NCBI GenBank assembly: GCA_025361065.1
Contig: JANYAY010000119.1
Span: forward strand, 1 to 33,439
DNA: 33,439 nucleotides
Reading direction: 5' to 3'
Source: Deltaproteobacteria bacterium
GTDB taxonomy: Bacteria > Desulfobacterota > Syntrophia > Syntrophales > Smithellaceae
The notes under the pieces: model-generated
Told to the model about the DNA's origin: nothing
Database searches by the model: none
Seen by the model: only the letters and a program-made list of their open reading frames with translations
Part shown: piece by piece, positions 2,345 to 8,025 of the stretch
How the letters are laid out: every line of letters begins with the position of its first letter
Numbering within the stretch: position 1 is the first letter of the stretch
Made by a program: the position numbers and the translations under genes

Positions 2345-2655
2345 AATGCTCTCCGGATGGCGGCTTTGGATGCAACAACGCTTCAACGGAAACTGTATCT
2401 CCGTCCAAGATCAAATGGCATTGGTTTTAGGACCACTTTCAACAGTAATCGATGCTTTGCAAAGCAGAAGCCATGTACACCTGCGTAGGTAAAATAGTCA
2501 CCGAGATATGACTAAATTGGACACTGCCTGTCAAGCCAAATATAGGTCAGAACAAGATCGGCAAATCTTGGTGGTTGGACAAGGGCGAAGTAATGATGAG
2601 AATTACGGCTACGAAACCAAAGGTAAAGCCCGCGGGCTAACAAGCAGGGAGAAAA
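2345..2655 (+). other. 311-bp gap without a convincing gene
   Basis: This gap separates the CheX-like and HD-GYP genes. Short frames exist: one of about 48 codons starting at 2346, and one of about 57 codons starting near 2508 and running into the HD-GYP gene in another frame. They lack good ribosome binding sites and resemble no family I recognise. No tRNA, terminator with a T-tract, or c-di-GMP riboswitch core could be recognised. It may be a decayed gene or an untranslated leader. Confidence 0.4.
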
Positions 2656-3633
2656 GTGAAAAAAGCATTACCCGTAAATAAACTGAAAGTCGGCATGTAT
2701 GTCCTGATGCCCATGTCCTGGACAGACCATCCCTTTTTAAAAAGCCAGTTCCTGTTGACCTCCGGGTTCCAGATAACAAAGATGATCGGGGCTGGCATGA
2801 AGGAAGTGCTGGTGGATTTCAGCAAAAGCCAGGTTATGGACGAGGAGCAGGCACCAGTCGTGGTCGTACCTGAAAAACCAGGAAATGAGGTGGTCCTGGA
2901 TGAACTGCGGGAAACCATCTTCGACAAGACGCTTCCCCCTCTGACGAAGGCGAAACAGGTCCATCAGTACTCGGGGGAGATGATCAAGAATCTGCTGGAC
3001 AACCCGACGGCGGAAAACATCAGCGCCACGAAGCGGGCGGTGGCCGATGTGGTTGACCTGATCCTGGACGACGAGGAAACCAGTAATCACCTGATGTTGA
3101 TCACGGACCACGATTATTATACCTATACCCACTCTGTTCATGTCGGAGTCCTTTCCATTTGCCTGGCCAGGAATATCTTCCGGCGATCAAACGCCCACGA
3201 TTTCTATGAACTGGGGTCGGGGTTTTTTCTCCATGACCTGGGGAAGGTCCGCATCAATCAGGATATCATTAACAAGCCGGGAAAGTTGACGGACGAGGAA
3301 ATGGCGGATATGAAAAAACACCCGAATCTGGGATTCGGGATTCTGAATCAAACCAAGCAGATGACCAATGAGGCTAAGATCATCATCCTTCAGCATCATG
3401 AGAGGATTGACGGAACAGGTTACCCCAAGGGCATCCGGGGGGATGAGTTGCATGTTTATGGAAAAATCTGTGCCATTGCCGATGTCTACGACGCCCTGAC
3501 GACGGACCGCCCTTACCGTAAGAAAATGCAGCCTTTCGAAGGGTTAAAAATGATGAAAGAGCAGATGATGCACCATTTCCAGAAGGATATGTTCGAACAG
3601 TTTGTCCTCATGATCGCTGTAAAAAAGAATTAA
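2656..3633 (+). CDS. DUF3391 / HD-GYP domain c-di-GMP phosphodiesterase
   Basis: The 325-residue protein has an N-terminal DUF3391-like region (about 1-130; LPVNKLKVGMYVLMP, then VLVDFSKSQV) and a C-terminal HD-GYP domain (about 145-320). The metal-binding and signature residues are intact: H159 (YTHSVHVG), H193-D194 with K197 (HDLGK), H222 (KHP), H247-H248 and the GYP loop at 255-257 (HHERIDGTGYP). The sequence ends DVYDALTTDRPYRK and a short helix, as expected for the family. HD-GYP enzymes hydrolyse cyclic di-GMP to pGpG or GMP. The start is GTG at 2656, preceded by AGGGAGAAAA. The gene looks more GC-rich than the accessory DNA that follows. No input domain such as PAS or REC is fused, so control may come through the DUF3391 region or an adjacent signalling protein. 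Confidence 0.93.
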   Translation: MKKALPVNKLKVGMYVLMPMSWTDHPFLKSQFLLTSGFQITKMIGAGMKEVLVDFSKSQVMDEEQAPVVVVPEKPGNEVVLDELRETIFDKTLPPLTKAKQVHQYSGEMIKNLLDNPTAENISATKRAVADVVDLILDDEETSNHLMLITDHDYYTYTHSVHVGVLSICLARNIFRRSNAHDFYELGSGFFLHDLGKVRINQDIINKPGKLTDEEMADMKKHPNLGFGILNQTKQMTNEAKIIILQHHERIDGTGYPKGIRGDELHVYGKICAIADVYDALTTDRPYRKKMQPFEGLKMMKEQMMHHFQKDMFEQFVLMIAVKKN

Positions 3634-3830
3634 TTCCGCTTTACGTTCCCCTGCCGCAAGTTATATCCAAAGTCAGGAAGGTACGGTAAAAACCTCGGCA
3701 AGCTGCCTCTAACCGGAGAATCACCCGGATTCAGGACAGGCAAATCTAGAATTGGCTGCTCCTGCCCATTTTTTATCTGAGACCATACTTTAATTTCCGG
3801 GGTCACTTTATATTTGCATTACTGTCCTGC
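3634..3830. other. Non-coding junction between signalling genes and accessory island
   Basis: This stretch has no credible ORF. It changes from moderately GC-rich sequence after the HD-GYP stop to AT-rich sequence. No tRNA or complete insertion sequence is recognised. The text around 3790-3830 precedes the HsdM remnant in an open frame but does not resemble HsdM, suggesting a deletion junction there. Confidence 0.4.
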
Positions 3831-4072
3831 TAAAAGCCTTCGAAGACTTTCTGTATCGTTTGAATTTGCCAGAGAATAGCAAAGAAAAGATAAGCGAAAG
3901 AAGCTGGTTTTTAACACGTGAAGAGATAGAAGAGAGAAACTATGATTTAAAGGCAGTTAATAACAACGCACCGGATTTCACAGACAAGAGGACTCCGAAA
4001 GAATTGTATTCAGTAATACTTGAGGCCCAGAAAGAGATTCAAAAAGAACTCGCAGAACTGATGAAAGAATAA
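3831..4072 (+). pseudogene. C-terminal remnant of a type I restriction N6-adenine methyltransferase (HsdM)
   Basis: An open frame from 3794 to the stop at 4072 encodes about 80 recognisable residues. From FEDFLYRLN they match the extreme C-terminus of HsdM-type methyltransferases: SERSWFLTREEIEERNYDLK, then AVNNN, RTPKELYSVI and a terminal EIQKELAELMKE helix. Full HsdM proteins are about 480-550 residues, and the catalytic NPPF/NPPY and SAM-binding parts are absent. The only start candidates are TTG codons (for example 3860) without a ribosome binding site. It is best read as a relic of a deleted type I restriction-modification system. It could instead be expressed as a short protein, but nothing supports that. 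Confidence 0.6.
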
Positions 4073-4077
4073 TGAAT

Positions 4078-4128
4078 GTTCATATTTTAAATATGTTCAA
4101 TTTATATGAACACGCAAAAAAAATGAAC
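4078..4128. promoter_or_regulatory. Upstream operator copy O1 (four GTTCA/TGAAC boxes)
   Basis: Four boxes occur in the order GTTCA (4078), GTTCA (4095), TGAAC (4107), TGAAC (4124). Their starts are spaced 17, 12 and 17 bp, so the site is symmetric, with two direct half-sites in each arm. The outer arms extend to an 8-bp perfect match (ATGTTCAT at 4076 with ATGAACAT at 4123). It lies just after the HsdM remnant and 156 bp upstream of an identical arrangement at the AbiE promoter. It is probably a binding site of the AbiEi-like regulator. Confidence 0.6.
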
Positions 4129-4224
4129 ATGATTCTTGTTATATTACCGTATAATAGCATATAAGATATTGTAATATTATACTTTTCTAAATAACTTGCC
4201 CAAATCATTTATTTTCTAAATATC

Positions 4225-4253
4225 TTGACATTTGTTCATTTTTAGATTATGTT
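4225..4253 (+). promoter_or_regulatory. Promoter of the AbiE-like operon
   Basis: A perfect -35 TTGACA (4225-4230) lies 17 bp before a -10-like TATGTT (4248-4253). Transcription would start near 4260, about 30 bp before the ATG at 4290. The operator copy at 4234-4284 covers the spacer, the -10 and the start site, so a bound regulator would block RNA polymerase. Confidence 0.7.
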
Positions 4254-4284
4254 CATAATTAATGAACAAAGCGGAAAAGTGAAC
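4234..4284. promoter_or_regulatory. Promoter-proximal operator copy O2 (four GTTCA/TGAAC boxes)
   Basis: The boxes are GTTCA (4234), GTTCA (4251), TGAAC (4263) and TGAAC (4280), with the same order and the same 17-12-17 bp spacing as the upstream copy. The inner pair forms the palindrome TGTTCAT-AATTA-ATGAACA (4250-4268). AbiEi antitoxins of known type IV systems repress their own promoter by binding inverted repeats, and this site is placed to do that. Confidence 0.7.
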
Positions 4285-4289
4285 ATCCT

Positions 4290-5339
4290 ATGTATAATAC
4301 AAACAAAGATATTGAAAATGAAATCCTTAAACTTGCCGTCGAAGCATTTAGGAAGAATGTCCCTTTTCGGTTAAATGTCGAACCTTTGGTTAAACAACCT
4401 CTCTACAATTTCGATTTTCGACCGGATATGGAATTAGGTATGGAGATAAACGGTAAGGGAATCAGATATTGTGCTGAAATCAAGAATACCTTCACGAAGA
4501 CAAATATTATGTTATTGCTGATGCGCAAACAAAAAATGCCCTACCCACTTTTATTGATAGCGAAGTATGTCAACCCCCTTCTGGCAGAAGAGCTAAAGAA
4601 AGAACATATAGAATTCATCGATGCAGCTGGCAATGCGTTTATCAACCAGCCACCAATATACATTTTTTTAAAAGGTAATAGACCTCCAGAGCCCCCTGGC
4701 CAAAATCAAAACAGAACGTTTAAACCAACAGGTCTCAAAATAATTTATGCCTTTTTGTGTAATCCTAGGCTAGAGGATGCGCCATTTCGAGAAATTGCTG
4801 ATAAGGCAGATGTGGCTCTTGGAACAGTTGGCTGGTTCATGAGGGATTTAAGGGAATTAGGCTTTTTAATAGATATGGGTGGAAAAGGCTACAAACTTTT
4901 TCAGAAAAATACTTTATTCCAGCGATGGATAACTGAGTATCCAGAGCGGTTAAGACCTAAACAAATACTAGGACGTTATAAGGGTGAGTATAATGACTGG
5001 TGGAATAATAAAGAATTGCATAATTTCAAGGCAAAATGGGGTGGAGAGGTTGCTGCTGCAAAACTGACTAAATATCTTCATCCTGAAGTAATAACTATCT
5101 ATACAAAGACTGAATATCTCAATCAGCTATTACTTGAATGTAGACTTAGAAAAGATCCGGACGGTGAAGTTGAAATCCTCAAACAGTTTTGGGGCTATGA
5201 TGAAAATGCGGAACATAAGGATCTGGTTCACCCAATGCTGATTTATGCTGATCTTATGGCAACAGGAAACCAACGAAACATCGAAACTGCAAAAATGATC
5301 TATGAGGAATATATTGTTCAACTTATCAGGGAAGATTGA
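4290..5339 (+). CDS. AbiEi-like antitoxin/autorepressor with PD-(D/E)XK-like N-terminal domain
   Basis: The 349-residue protein resembles the AbiEi_2/COG4861-type family of putative type IV antitoxins. Its N-terminal domain (about 1-130) carries a PD-(D/E)XK-like signature: RPD46, then E63-I-K65 in CAEIKNTFT. The family-typical strand and turn HIEFIDAAGNAFI follows near residues 110-125. A winged helix-turn-helix lies at about 165-200 (FREIADKADVALGTVGWFMRDLRELGFLI). The rest is a helical C-terminal region. In characterised AbiE systems the antitoxin represses the operon and counters the nucleotidyltransferase toxin without stable complex formation. The partner gene overlaps its 3' end by 38 bp. 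The ribosome binding site is weak. Whether the nuclease-like fold is active cannot be judged from sequence alone. Confidence 0.8.
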   Translation: MYNTNKDIENEILKLAVEAFRKNVPFRLNVEPLVKQPLYNFDFRPDMELGMEINGKGIRYCAEIKNTFTKTNIMLLLMRKQKMPYPLLLIAKYVNPLLAEELKKEHIEFIDAAGNAFINQPPIYIFLKGNRPPEPPGQNQNRTFKPTGLKIIYAFLCNPRLEDAPFREIADKADVALGTVGWFMRDLRELGFLIDMGGKGYKLFQKNTLFQRWITEYPERLRPKQILGRYKGEYNDWWNNKELHNFKAKWGGEVAAAKLTKYLHPEVITIYTKTEYLNQLLLECRLRKDPDGEVEILKQFWGYDENAEHKDLVHPMLIYADLMATGNQRNIETAKMIYEEYIVQLIRED

Positions 5340-6171
5340 TCAGCAAACAGTAGAGGCCCTTCTCGCAATTAAGAAAGAAGCCGATATCTTAAATATCTCT
5401 TTTTTTGTGGTCGGCGCTTTTGCGAGAGATATAATATTGCAACATTGTTATGGCAGAAATCCTCGCAGAATGACCAGAGATATTGACGTAGGCATTAATG
5501 TTGCCAATTGGGAACAGTTTGACAAGTTGATTAGTGCGTTAATCTTAACGGGGAAATTTTCTCGCACAAAAGAACCTCAACGGTATTTATTCAGCAACTA
5601 TATCCCGATTGATATAGTTCCCTTTGGTGCGATTGCTGGCGAACAAGTAAAAATTGATTGGCCGCCAGAACATAAAATATTTATGAGCATATTTGGATTT
5701 AAAGAGGCGTTTGAAAATTCCATTATGATCAGATTACATTCTGATCCTGAACTCGATGTCAAAGTACCTACATTGCCAAGTTTAGCAATCATGAAACTCA
5801 TTTCATGGAAAGAAAAATATCCTGATCGTGCAAAAGATGCTGAGGATTTGCTGTTTATAATGCAGCAATACGAACATGCAGGAAATTTTGACAGGCTTTA
5901 CACGAACGAGCCTGACCTATTGAAGGAAGAAAGTTTCGACAACCAACTTGCGAGTATCAGATTACTCGGCAGAGATATGGCCATGATTGCAGGAAAAGAC
6001 ACAGCGAAGGAGATCAGAGCTATCTTAGATGCTGAAACGCAGTCTTCTCAGAATTTGATTATCAATATGATCCGGGAGAGGCAAATGTTTAAGAGAAACT
6101 TCGACACAATAAATCTTCAACTCGAAAAGCTAAAACAAGGATTTATCGAGGCCTCAGAGAGAAAGTTATAA
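5302..6171 (+). CDS. AbiEii-like nucleotidyltransferase toxin
   Basis: The 289-residue protein is a minimal nucleotidyltransferase of the AbiEii/COG2253-like group. Visible motifs are the nucleotide-binding GxxxR stretch VVGAFARD (G38-R42-D43), the metal pair D60-I-D62 (MTRDIDVGI), and a probable third carboxylate D104 (YIPIDIVPF). The family-typical helix SLAIMKLISWKEK near residue 150 is followed by KDAEDLL. AbiEii toxins transfer nucleotides, in some relatives to tRNA, and arrest growth. The ATG at 5302 overlaps the antitoxin gene by 38 bp and has no clear ribosome binding site, so expression is probably coupled to antitoxin translation. A TTG at 5314 is an alternative start. The substrate here is unknown. 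Confidence 0.82.
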   Translation: MRNILFNLSGKIDQQTVEALLAIKKEADILNISFFVVGAFARDIILQHCYGRNPRRMTRDIDVGINVANWEQFDKLISALILTGKFSRTKEPQRYLFSNYIPIDIVPFGAIAGEQVKIDWPPEHKIFMSIFGFKEAFENSIMIRLHSDPELDVKVPTLPSLAIMKLISWKEKYPDRAKDAEDLLFIMQQYEHAGNFDRLYTNEPDLLKEESFDNQLASIRLLGRDMAMIAGKDTAKEIRAILDAETQSSQNLIINMIRERQMFKRNFDTINLQLEKLKQGFIEASERKL

Positions 6172-6273
6172 GACCCCTCTGATTCGGCGATCTTCAACAT
6201 CAGGCCTTTTTGAAATAAAAAATTAATCGTGCTATGGAAATATTAAAATTATTGCGTAACTATTTGAAATTAT

Positions 6274-6350
6274 TGGTGCCCCTGGCGTGAGTCGAACACG
6301 CGGCACACGGATTAGGAATCCGTTGCTCTATCCTTCTGAGCTACAGAGGC
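6274..6350 (-). tRNA. tRNA-Arg (anticodon CCT)
   Basis: The minus strand folds into a full cloverleaf. The acceptor GCCTCTG pairs with CAGGGGC (one G-T pair). The anticodon stem ACGGA/TCCGT encloses the loop TTCCTAA, giving anticodon CCT, which reads AGG. The T arm is GCGTG-TTCGACT-CACGC, and the 3' CCA is encoded. The 3' end (6274) faces the AbiE/HsdM accessory segment. Confidence 0.96.
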
Positions 6351-6377
6351 GTTGTTGTCTAATGAGGAAGATTGTCG

Positions 6378-6406
6378 GCTTTATCATGCATTTTTCTGCC
6401 TGTCAA
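6378..6406 (-). promoter_or_regulatory. Promoter of tRNA-Arg
   Basis: On the minus strand, TTGACA (6406-6401) is followed after exactly 17 bp by TAAAGC (6383-6378). Transcription would start near 6371, about 20 bp before the mature tRNA 5' end at 6350. The same pair of hexamers with the same spacing occurs in front of greA. Confidence 0.65.
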
Positions 6407-6473
6407 TAATTACCATGTCGCGTGCTACTCTTGGCAAGGGCGGACAAATGATTTTAAAAATGTTTTACTAAGA

Positions 6474-7376
6474 CTACGGCAAGAAGCTTTTTATGTGTGT
6501 TTCCAGCAAACGGTTATTATCAAAATCTTTAAGTTGGAGATATTTGGGTTTTGTGCCGACAAAAGCTGCTTTGGGGATCAGACCAATCAATTCCGATTCC
6601 AGAATATCGACGCCCCGATCAGTTGCCAGCGACTTCACCAAATCATAAATTGGTTTCAGCGGGGTCTCTTTATAATTAGTCAGGTTCATCGACACTTGAG
6701 CAACACTGCGACTTTTCAAAATAACCCCAATGGCCCGTACATGTTTTAATCCGCCGCTTTTCTCGCGAATTTGCGATGCAATTTTTTGGGCCAGACGCAA
6801 ATCATCAGTGTCTAAATTGATATTGTAAGCGACCAGCGGCAGGCGCGCACCAACTGCTGTTGCACCGGAACGTTCATTAAATAACGGTTTGCCGATATCC
6901 GGAGCATCGTCGGGAATAGACATTTTCTTCTCCAGCGCTTCGTAGCCGCCGCGCCGGACTTTCGCCAATTCATTGCGCTCCGGGACAAGGGCCGCCTCGC
7001 CATAAAAATACACCGGCACACCGAACCGTTCGAATAATTGTTGTCCAAAGCGATGAGCAACGTCAATGGCATCTTTCATCCTGGCCGTAGATAACGGGAT
7101 AAAGGGCACAACATCAACAGCTCCTAAACGCGGATGGACTCCGGTCTGGTTGCGCATATCAATTATTTCCAGCGCACGACCTGCTGCCGCCAGCGCCGCT
7201 TCCAGCACATCATCAGCCTTGCCCATAAATGTATAGACGCTGCGATTATGGTCGCTATCGCCGCTGAAATCAACCAGACGGACTGCGGGAAAAGATTTAA
7301 ATACTTCAGCAATCGCTGCTATCTTCTTTTGATTGCAACCTTCACTGAAATTCGGCACACATTCAATAATCTTCAT
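6474..7376 (-). CDS. ftcD: Glutamate formimidoyltransferase
   Basis: The 300-residue protein matches the stand-alone formiminotransferase (FTCD N and C subdomains). It starts MKIIECVPNFSEGCNQKKI and contains DFSGDSDHNRSVYTFMG, NQTGVHPRLGAVDVVPFIP and VPVYFYGEAA. The enzyme moves a formimino group between formiminoglutamate and tetrahydrofolate, linking histidine or purine breakdown to the one-carbon pool. The cyclodeaminase domain found in the vertebrate fusion is absent, as usual in bacteria. Its ATG is 4 bp after the phosphatase stop, so the two are co-translated. No other histidine-utilisation gene is nearby. It is the last protein gene of the smc-ftsY operon. Confidence 0.93.
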   Translation of the reverse strand: MKIIECVPNFSEGCNQKKIAAIAEVFKSFPAVRLVDFSGDSDHNRSVYTFMGKADDVLEAALAAAGRALEIIDMRNQTGVHPRLGAVDVVPFIPLSTARMKDAIDVAHRFGQQLFERFGVPVYFYGEAALVPERNELAKVRRGGYEALEKKMSIPDDAPDIGKPLFNERSGATAVGARLPLVAYNINLDTDDLRLAQKIASQIREKSGGLKHVRAIGVILKSRSVAQVSMNLTNYKETPLKPIYDLVKSLATDRGVDILESELIGLIPKAAFVGTKPKYLQLKDFDNNRLLETHIKSFLP

Positions 7377-7380
7377 TTCT

Positions 7381-8025
7381 TTATACCTGATGGATTTTCA
7401 TCGCCGGCAGCTCCAAACAAGTGAGACTGCCGCCGGAAAACGCTCCTGTATCAATTCCTATCTTATTCGGTCTGATCAAAGGGGAGCGAGACGGAGTATG
7501 ACCGAAAATTACCAGCTTGCCGAAATCATAATCCGAATCGATGAACTCCTGCCTGACCCATAATAAATCGCGAAAGTTTTGTTCGCTCAAAGACAACCCG
7601 GGTATTAAACCGGCATGAACGAATATATAATCCTTTGTTTCATAATACGGCAAAAGCGACTGATAAAAAAGCAGATGACTTGGGGGAATTTTTACCTTCC
7701 TGGTCCGGGGCATTGAGAAACGGGAGATGCCATAAGACAACAAAGTTGCAGCTCCTCCGTTATCCAGATACATCTTTTCATCAATGCCTGCAAGGTAGTT
7801 GAGGAACATCTGCTCGTGATTTCCCATAAGGCAGATGATATTTTTAAATTCATTCCGCAGCCCAATCACATAATCAACAACTTCTTTAGCAGATTCTCCC
7901 CGGTCAATATAGTCACCTATGAACACCAAAGTATCACATTGTTGATCAATAGCAAGGTTTTTAATTAGCCTCCGGAGCTGATCAAAACAACCGTGAATGT
8001 CACCTATAGCAAAGATTTTATTCAT
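7381..8025 (-). CDS. Serine/threonine protein phosphatase (PPP-type metallophosphoesterase)
   Basis: About 214 residues with the ordered PPP motifs: GDIHGCFDQL at the N-terminus (metal ligands), GDYIDRG, MGNHEQMFL, the histidine of FVHAGLIPG, and FGHTPSRSPL. It resembles the small bacterial PrpA/PrpB and lambda-phosphatase group, which removes phosphate from serine, threonine or sometimes tyrosine residues of proteins. A TTG one codon earlier (8028) could also start translation. The ATG at 8025 is preferred, with AAGG four bases before it. The gene follows ftsY by about 25 bp and precedes ftcD by 4 bp. A diadenosine tetraphosphatase (ApaH-like) activity is an alternative that sequence alone cannot exclude. 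Confidence 0.9.
   Translation of the reverse strand: MNKIFAIGDIHGCFDQLRRLIKNLAIDQQCDTLVFIGDYIDRGESAKEVVDYVIGLRNEFKNIICLMGNHEQMFLNYLAGIDEKMYLDNGGAATLLSYGISRFSMPRTRKVKIPPSHLLFYQSLLPYYETKDYIFVHAGLIPGLSLSEQNFRDLLWVRQEFIDSDYDFGKLVIFGHTPSRSPLIRPNKIGIDTGAFSGGSLTCLELPAMKIHQV

Follow-up and report, generated by a model that had tools for sequence, protein, structure and literature searches.

A conserved four-box candidate operator at AbiEi_2 toxin-antitoxin operons and its copies in phages

Results

Two four-box sites precede an abiE operon

We identified two 51-bp palindromic sites, each composed of four GTTCA/TGAAC boxes, upstream of an abiE toxin-antitoxin operon in the window (the whole 33,439-nucleotide stretch of deltaproteobacterial contig JANYAY010000119.1 that was analyzed). 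Both sites are very probably operators of the downstream AbiEi_2 protein, which would repress its own abiEi-abiEii operon. We infer binding, repression and a role for the second copy from features that were directly observed, i.e., the anatomy of the sites, their conservation, their position at the AbiEi start and the change of the operator with the AbiEi branch.

All eight boxes reported in the initial annotation were recovered from the sequence with the same positions, orientations and 17-12-17 spacing in both groups (Table 1). Each group is a symmetric composite site, as had been described: within each 22-bp arm, GTTCA is repeated directly at a spacing of 17 bp, and 7 bp separate the two facing arms. 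The second group overlaps the TTGACA-N17-TATGTT promoter proposed for it, leaving 5 bp between its end and the abiEi start codon. The first had been described as lacking an obvious promoter, which is arguable: a good -35 element is indeed missing, but a perfect TATAAT is located 21 bp downstream of the site. GTTCA occurred 70 times on both strands of the window (shuffle mean 66.5), and this count corresponds to a chance expectation of approximately 0.4 in 207 bp. In the 3.95-Mb genome of the organism, the exact 20-base pattern was found at these two places only, each appearing on both strands because the pattern is palindromic. The pair is not a plain sequence duplication: when the two copies were compared, 15 of 31 spacer bases agreed.

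Table 1. Positions of the operators, promoter elements and genes in the window
Feature	Positions	Strand	Remarks
Block common to the sister species, 84% identity	3968-6252	+	blastn of window 2501-8000 against the sister stretch (L007); spans the operators and both abiE genes
Upstream four-box operator	4078-4128	.	boxes 4078-4082, 4095-4099, 4107-4111, 4124-4128
Possible second -10 element, TATAAT	4150-4155	+	read from the sequence; weak, absent from the promoter-scan output
Sigma-70-like promoter, TTGACA-N17-TATGTT	4225-4253	+	consensus match alone; overlapped by the proximal operator
Promoter-proximal four-box operator	4234-4284	.	boxes 4234-4238, 4251-4255, 4263-4267, 4280-4284
abiEi, AbiEi_2 antitoxin and presumed repressor, 349 aa	4290-5339	+	central winged helix; PF09952, 155 bits (cut-off 21)
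abiEii, nucleotidyltransferase toxin, 289 aa	5302-6171	+	overlaps the abiEi end; PF08843, 34.6 bits (cut-off 22.5)

The AbiE-like toxin-antitoxin operon proposed at the outset was borne out, as AbiEi_2 (PF09952) and AbiEii (PF08843) were both detected above the Pfam cut-offs. The genes showed the order of type IV AbiE systems, with the antitoxin first and the two frames overlapping on the plus strand, and inverted repeats were present at the promoter. For the window AbiEi, NCBIfam gave no match at all and PADLOC no AbiEi match, and the PADLOC AbiEii match of its partner was weak (E 0.009). In an AlphaFold2 model of AbiEi (mean pLDDT 91), residues 138-216 matched winged-helix structures; Foldseek alone returned nothing for this model at E 0.001 or below, and a PDB sequence search gave weak matches only (E 0.06 or more). 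Residues 1-113 (window 4290-4628) may form a PD-(D/E)XK-like domain, with D...ExK present in many members. This part aligned with EndoMS (5gke) with a Z score of 7.0 over 102 residues, and a weak NucS_C match (E 0.006, below cut-off) was seen in the AbiEi relative L023. Residues 234-349 (window 4989-5336) aligned with the aminoglycoside nucleotidyltransferase ANT(2'')-Ia with a middling score (Z 7.9 over 116 residues). These matches are no more than suggestive of an N-terminal part resembling nucleases and a C-terminal part resembling nucleotidyltransferases.

A sister species (L004), whose AbiEi was 85% identical to that of the window, kept all eight boxes while its spacers had drifted: in the gap-free part, 35/35 box bases and 36/50 spacer bases were conserved, and in the proximal operator 20/20 and 24/31, respectively. 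The spacing of its upstream copy was 17-12-16, the TTGACA and TATGTT hexamers were the same, and TAAAAT was present in place of TATAAT. Outside the common block (Table 1), the rest of window 2501-8000 had no blastn match to the 7.5-kb stretch of the sister. With its flanks unmatched, the block of operators and abiE genes seems to travel as a cassette that moves as a unit.

Two neighboring features were also noted. A 70-aa ORF at window 3860-4072, partly common to the sister, matched Pfam DUF4194 only below the cut-off and presumably corresponds to the end of an M subunit of type I restriction. A tRNA-Arg (CCT) gene is located on the minus strand about 100 bp past abiEii (window 6277-6350); no tRNA was found in the 7.5-kb stretch of the sister.

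The operator changes with the AbiEi branch

Relatives at the order level were chosen by protein, not by site; 155 genomes were searched, and 20 had a match. The operator was present just upstream of AbiEi in all 8 other genomes (40-85% identity), a set that excludes the locus of the window itself, L018 (contig end) and L026, which is the same place as L014 (gene in two frames). Seven of the eight loci had 19-20 of the 20 box bases and L013 had 18. In Flavobacteriaceae, 14 of 149 genomes matched an AbiEi query, including the genome of the query. All 11 loci with long matches (E 1e-34 or better) contained the operator with 19-20/20 box bases (10/10 without L367, which is the query's own locus and was derived from the pattern scan); in L376, the spacing was 18-12-17. 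The genomes outside these 11 were represented by L380, a 29-residue AbiEi remnant whose site still scored 20/20, and by L378 (short match, three internal stops) and L379/L381 (weak match, 306-aa open frame), where no operator was found. The initial annotation had suggested that related loci be compared for the 17-12-17 pattern, and this pattern was kept in homologous operons both at the order level and in Flavobacteriaceae, the opposite of the missing boxes that would have refuted the annotation.

A different operator was found at the genes of distant AbiEi_2 proteins (23-28% identity), and members of both branches passed the PF09952 cut-off. Here, TTTCA boxes were spaced 18-13-18 in 9 of 10 genomes, eight with the exact pattern and L020 with a near one, corresponding approximately to TTTCA-N13-TTTCAGC-N4-GCTGAAA-N13-TGAAA. 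Neither the GTTCA nor the TTTCA operator was recognized in the remaining genome, L022. The recognition-helix region of this branch was VSLGQVSNVK or nearly so in the members shown, versus an overall consensus of VALGxVxxV. Nothing points more strongly to AbiEi as the binder than this joint change of the operator and the adjacent protein. A protein-pattern scan of genome contigs with P0001 identified no relatives.

Occurrence and doubling of the site in bacterial genomes

We further searched for the exact pattern in a collection of 84,980 species genomes. It was detected in at least 119 contigs from many phyla, versus approximately 0.2 expected at equal base frequencies. Among the matches listed there were 128 sites, 89 of which lay in a stretch with an AbiEi homolog, including 76 that had AbiEii too. 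In a set of 77 AbiEi loci bearing an exact site, the distance from the end of the site to the start codon was between -6 and 17 bp in 70; start codons were picked mechanically and overlapped the last box in 35 of the 77.

The other 39 of the 128 sites listed had no AbiEi homolog in the fetched stretch, and they could point to a general defense or toxin-antitoxin regulator encoded elsewhere, for which AbiEi would be one customer among others. HSDR_N (type I restriction; 3), Fic (4) and HipA-N (3) were detected among the 78 proteins scanned beside such orphan sites, which were flanked by defense families in a further scan as well, and two of the sites (L132:6615-6665 and L044:565-615) were at or upstream of XRE genes. 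We nevertheless consider this explanation improbable: only 4 of the 39 were at an ORF start, compared with 73 of 90 sites at AbiEi loci among the matches listed (greedy ORF calling; the 90 include one viral locus, L219), full-length AbiEi relatives chosen by protein carry the operator, and operator sequence and spacing shift together with the AbiEi branch. With AbiEi as the preferred binder, another protein could still share the site, given the 39 listed sites that lack it. Looping of DNA between the two copies at a fixed distance, about 15 helical turns as proposed initially, has a similarly small chance. The copies are 156 bp apart in the window and 154 bp in the sister, both near whole helical turns, but eight other close doubles, each with an AbiEi homolog, had distances of 65, 68, 68, 77, 84, 106, 117 and 131 bp, and TTTCA operators were doubled at 76 bp in six genomes and at 73 bp in L020. 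Divided by 10.5, these distances share no phase, and since the distance varies in this way the 15-turn argument fails. A single exact copy in 110 of 119 genome stretches among the matches listed also speaks against fixed-distance looping. Operator doubling itself is real and recurrent, with nine stretches containing two exact sites among these matches (eight pairs 65-131 bp apart); its distance is not constant.

By analogy with AbiEi of S. agalactiae, one AbiEi protein probably occupies one arm. The proximal copy, which extends over the -10 element as well as the leader, would block RNA polymerase, and the upstream copy may add binding capacity or cover a second promoter, for which a fixed-phase loop would be unnecessary.

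Several sites had additional features. One orphan bacterial site (L074:3602-3652) adjoins a Fic gene, and another (L065:2491-2541) adjoins what we read from the sequence as a restriction-like gene. Among the 51-bp sites in general, long near-perfect palindromes with fully paired arm spacers and no AbiEi in the stretch were observed at L048:2671-2721, L059:4082-4132, L105:4973-5023, L109:1073-1123 and L171:7123-7173.

Copies of the site in phages

The exact 51-bp site was also present in at least 120 viral contigs of IMG/VR; controls with altered spacing and with reversed boxes in the same geometry both gave 0. A search with a sub-pattern identified 101 viral stretches, 28 of which were common to the first set, giving a rough total of about 430; 80 of the 101 were given as loci, and all 52 new ones were examined. 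The site-bearing contigs are phage-like: the largest ORFs of 90 dereplicated viral loci matched terminase, portal and DNA polymerase families, among others (the commonest in 7 of 90). Among isolated phages, one exact site was detected in each of Cellulophaga phage phi17:2 and Tenacibaculum phage pT24, and one site with 1 mismatch in each of the Polaribacter phages P12002L and P12002S; no site within 3 mismatches was found in phi19:1, Nekkels_1 and Panino. By eye, base preferences around the boxes were alike in the AbiEi (90), other-genome (39) and viral (119) sets among the matches listed. Searched for with 24 fixed bases, the TTTCA operator was detected in 12 viral contigs, with 0 in the shifted-spacing control and no AbiEi in the fetched stretches.

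An AbiEi gene was found in one of 172 fetched viral stretches (L219) and AbiEii in none, these being stretches and not always whole contigs; the other 171 carry the site without its cognate gene. Viral sites are thus almost never beside an antitoxin gene, as far as examined, and viruses may carry the site as a decoy. Our tentative reading, to which as a whole we give a little less than an even chance, is that tailed phages carry free-standing AbiEi operators as position-independent decoys against host toxin-antitoxin defense, with two specificities matching the two AbiEi_2 branches, located among tRNA genes, within genes or where genes are sparse, and gained and lost as whole cassettes. Phage sites would titrate the antitoxin-repressor off the host promoter, which would switch on the antitoxin-first operon or upset the balance of AbiE before the system can act; derepression would raise the toxin as well as the antitoxin.

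Other origins of the phage copies were also considered. They might serve phage genes as operators, with either a phage protein or the AbiEi of the host acting on them to regulate the phage. Among 93 dereplicated viral sites (120 contexts were reduced to 94, and L219 was moved to the AbiEi loci), 20 had an ORF start at a distance of -20 to +30 bp, and at least 4 of the 12 TTTCA-type sites (L275, L279, L282 and L284) had an ORF start in or beside them, so some of these may be ordinary operators; the 376-aa ORF of L279 had no Pfam match. We regard this explanation as unlikely for the phage copies generally because 73 of the 93 were away from ORF starts (25 had no ORF of at least 80 aa within 150 bp on either side, 11 were deep inside ORFs and 5 were between convergent genes), ORF clustering revealed no gene family regularly starting at the site, and 23 of the 172 viral sites (18 distinct sequences) were 1-10 bp from tRNA genes. 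An origin as relics of lost abiE operons is less probable still, and indeed very doubtful, even though defense cassettes do get taken up by phages, as the AbiEi gene of L219 illustrates, and three loci of one clade (L298, L304 and L321) retain the first two boxes only. It is at odds with the near absence of AbiEi and the complete absence of AbiEii from the fetched viral stretches, with the lack of AbiEi relatives in 50,697 phage records searched with two queries, and with the site scores in a clade of phages collected by terminase alone. In this clade (80 loci, 74 after six without 650 bp upstream were dropped), the site in the gap between TerS and TerL scored 20/20 in 6 loci and 11-13 in 68, including the three with two boxes; none scored 14-19, and the control spacing scored 10-14. 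Another host protein of AbiEi-like specificity may instead be the one that binds the phage copies. In favor of decoys for AbiEi, the presence of both AbiEi specificities in phages without a nearby gene would be difficult to account for if the target were neither AbiEi nor something that mirrors it.

GTTCA resembles the tRNA T-loop. Because of this resemblance and the tRNA genes adjoining 23 phage sites, an RNA hairpin was considered, but it was not supported. Arm spacers of viral sites paired in 34.8% versus 36.1% in shuffled sequences (138 sites, z -1.3), and no spacer pairing beyond chance was seen at tRNA arrays (18 sites, z 0.5), which favors a DNA site. Excess pairing was detected at AbiEi sites (89 sites, z 2.6) and other genome sites (39 sites, z 4.7, four fully paired). 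Within 300 bp of a tRNA gene there were 25 viral sites versus 10.9 expected, and in phi17:2 the site occupies the whole space separating tRNA-Leu from tRNA-His. Sites that fill gaps between neighboring phage tRNA genes, a few bp from each, were also observed in L154, L165, L202, L208, L221, L385, L417, L424, L267 (2501-2551) and others.

The TerS-TerL gap measured 76-984 bp across 76 loci and contained 0.89 palindromes per locus, versus 0.21 in letter shuffles. These gaps (L181:3982-4762, L166:1073-1891 and others) are hypervariable and non-coding, with differing palindromes, and the terminases are 89-100% identical; by our reading the clade consists of Bacteroidota phages. A palindrome excess was found beside the four-box sites as well, strongest for viral sites (2.9 versus 1.1 shuffled, 100 sites) and also present at AbiEi loci (1.7 versus 1.1, 81 sites) and other genome sites (1.6 versus 1.0, 30 sites). 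In some phages the four-box site lies packed among other operator-like palindromes in hypervariable arrays, and these palindromes might act as decoys for further host repressors. For one candidate, the phage-array palindrome TGCATGAAT-N10-ATTCATGCA, a role as a host operator found no support: a first set of 10 genomes gave 0 matches, and among 395 genomes from a class of Bacteroidota, 1 had a match with at most 1 mismatch.

Discussion

An autoregulated AbiE operator with inverted repeats is already known, and so is its doubling in Rv2827c (PMC7319586). The AbiEi operator of S. agalactiae consists of two 23-bp inverted repeats 3 bp apart (PMC7319586). That system and the one in the window have in common a type IV toxin-antitoxin pair, an antitoxin that is the repressor in S. 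agalactiae and the presumed repressor in the window, and facing repeats at the promoter, with a gap of 3 bp in S. agalactiae and 7 bp here; the PF09952 branch, the two direct GTTCA boxes per arm and the doubled operator set the window apart. The closest doubled operator found is that of rv2827c of M. tuberculosis, where two tandem pairs of 23-bp inverted repeats are located upstream of the gene (Beck et al. 2020, PMC7319586). There, tandem inverted-repeat sets likewise precede an AbiEi-type antitoxin, with one set over the transcription start. The remark in the initial annotation that such duplication had not been seen described was therefore too strong. Unlike in the window, the Rv2827c repeats are 13 bp apart within a pair, the pairs are 4 bp apart, and negative co-operativity was measured, as that text reports (PMC7319586).

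In synthetic E. coli transcription-factor decoys, extra sites draw the regulator from its promoter (PMC7826281). These decoys share this principle with the proposed phage sites; they are synthetic and not natural phage sites for an antitoxin. In the open-licence papers searched, no description was found of an operator built from four such boxes, of how widely it is distributed or of its occurrence in phages.

AbiEi_2 (PF09952) is nearly absent from the literature searched, where a single paper mentions PF09952, yet it was found here in many phyla. The conserved operator provides a sequence handle for finding members of this family, as well as a direct binding test. If the phage copies are decoys, some fifty bp of non-coding DNA would act in counter-defense and would be invisible to gene-based anti-defense searches, and the idea can be tested with phages already in isolation, Cellulophaga phage phi17:2 among them.
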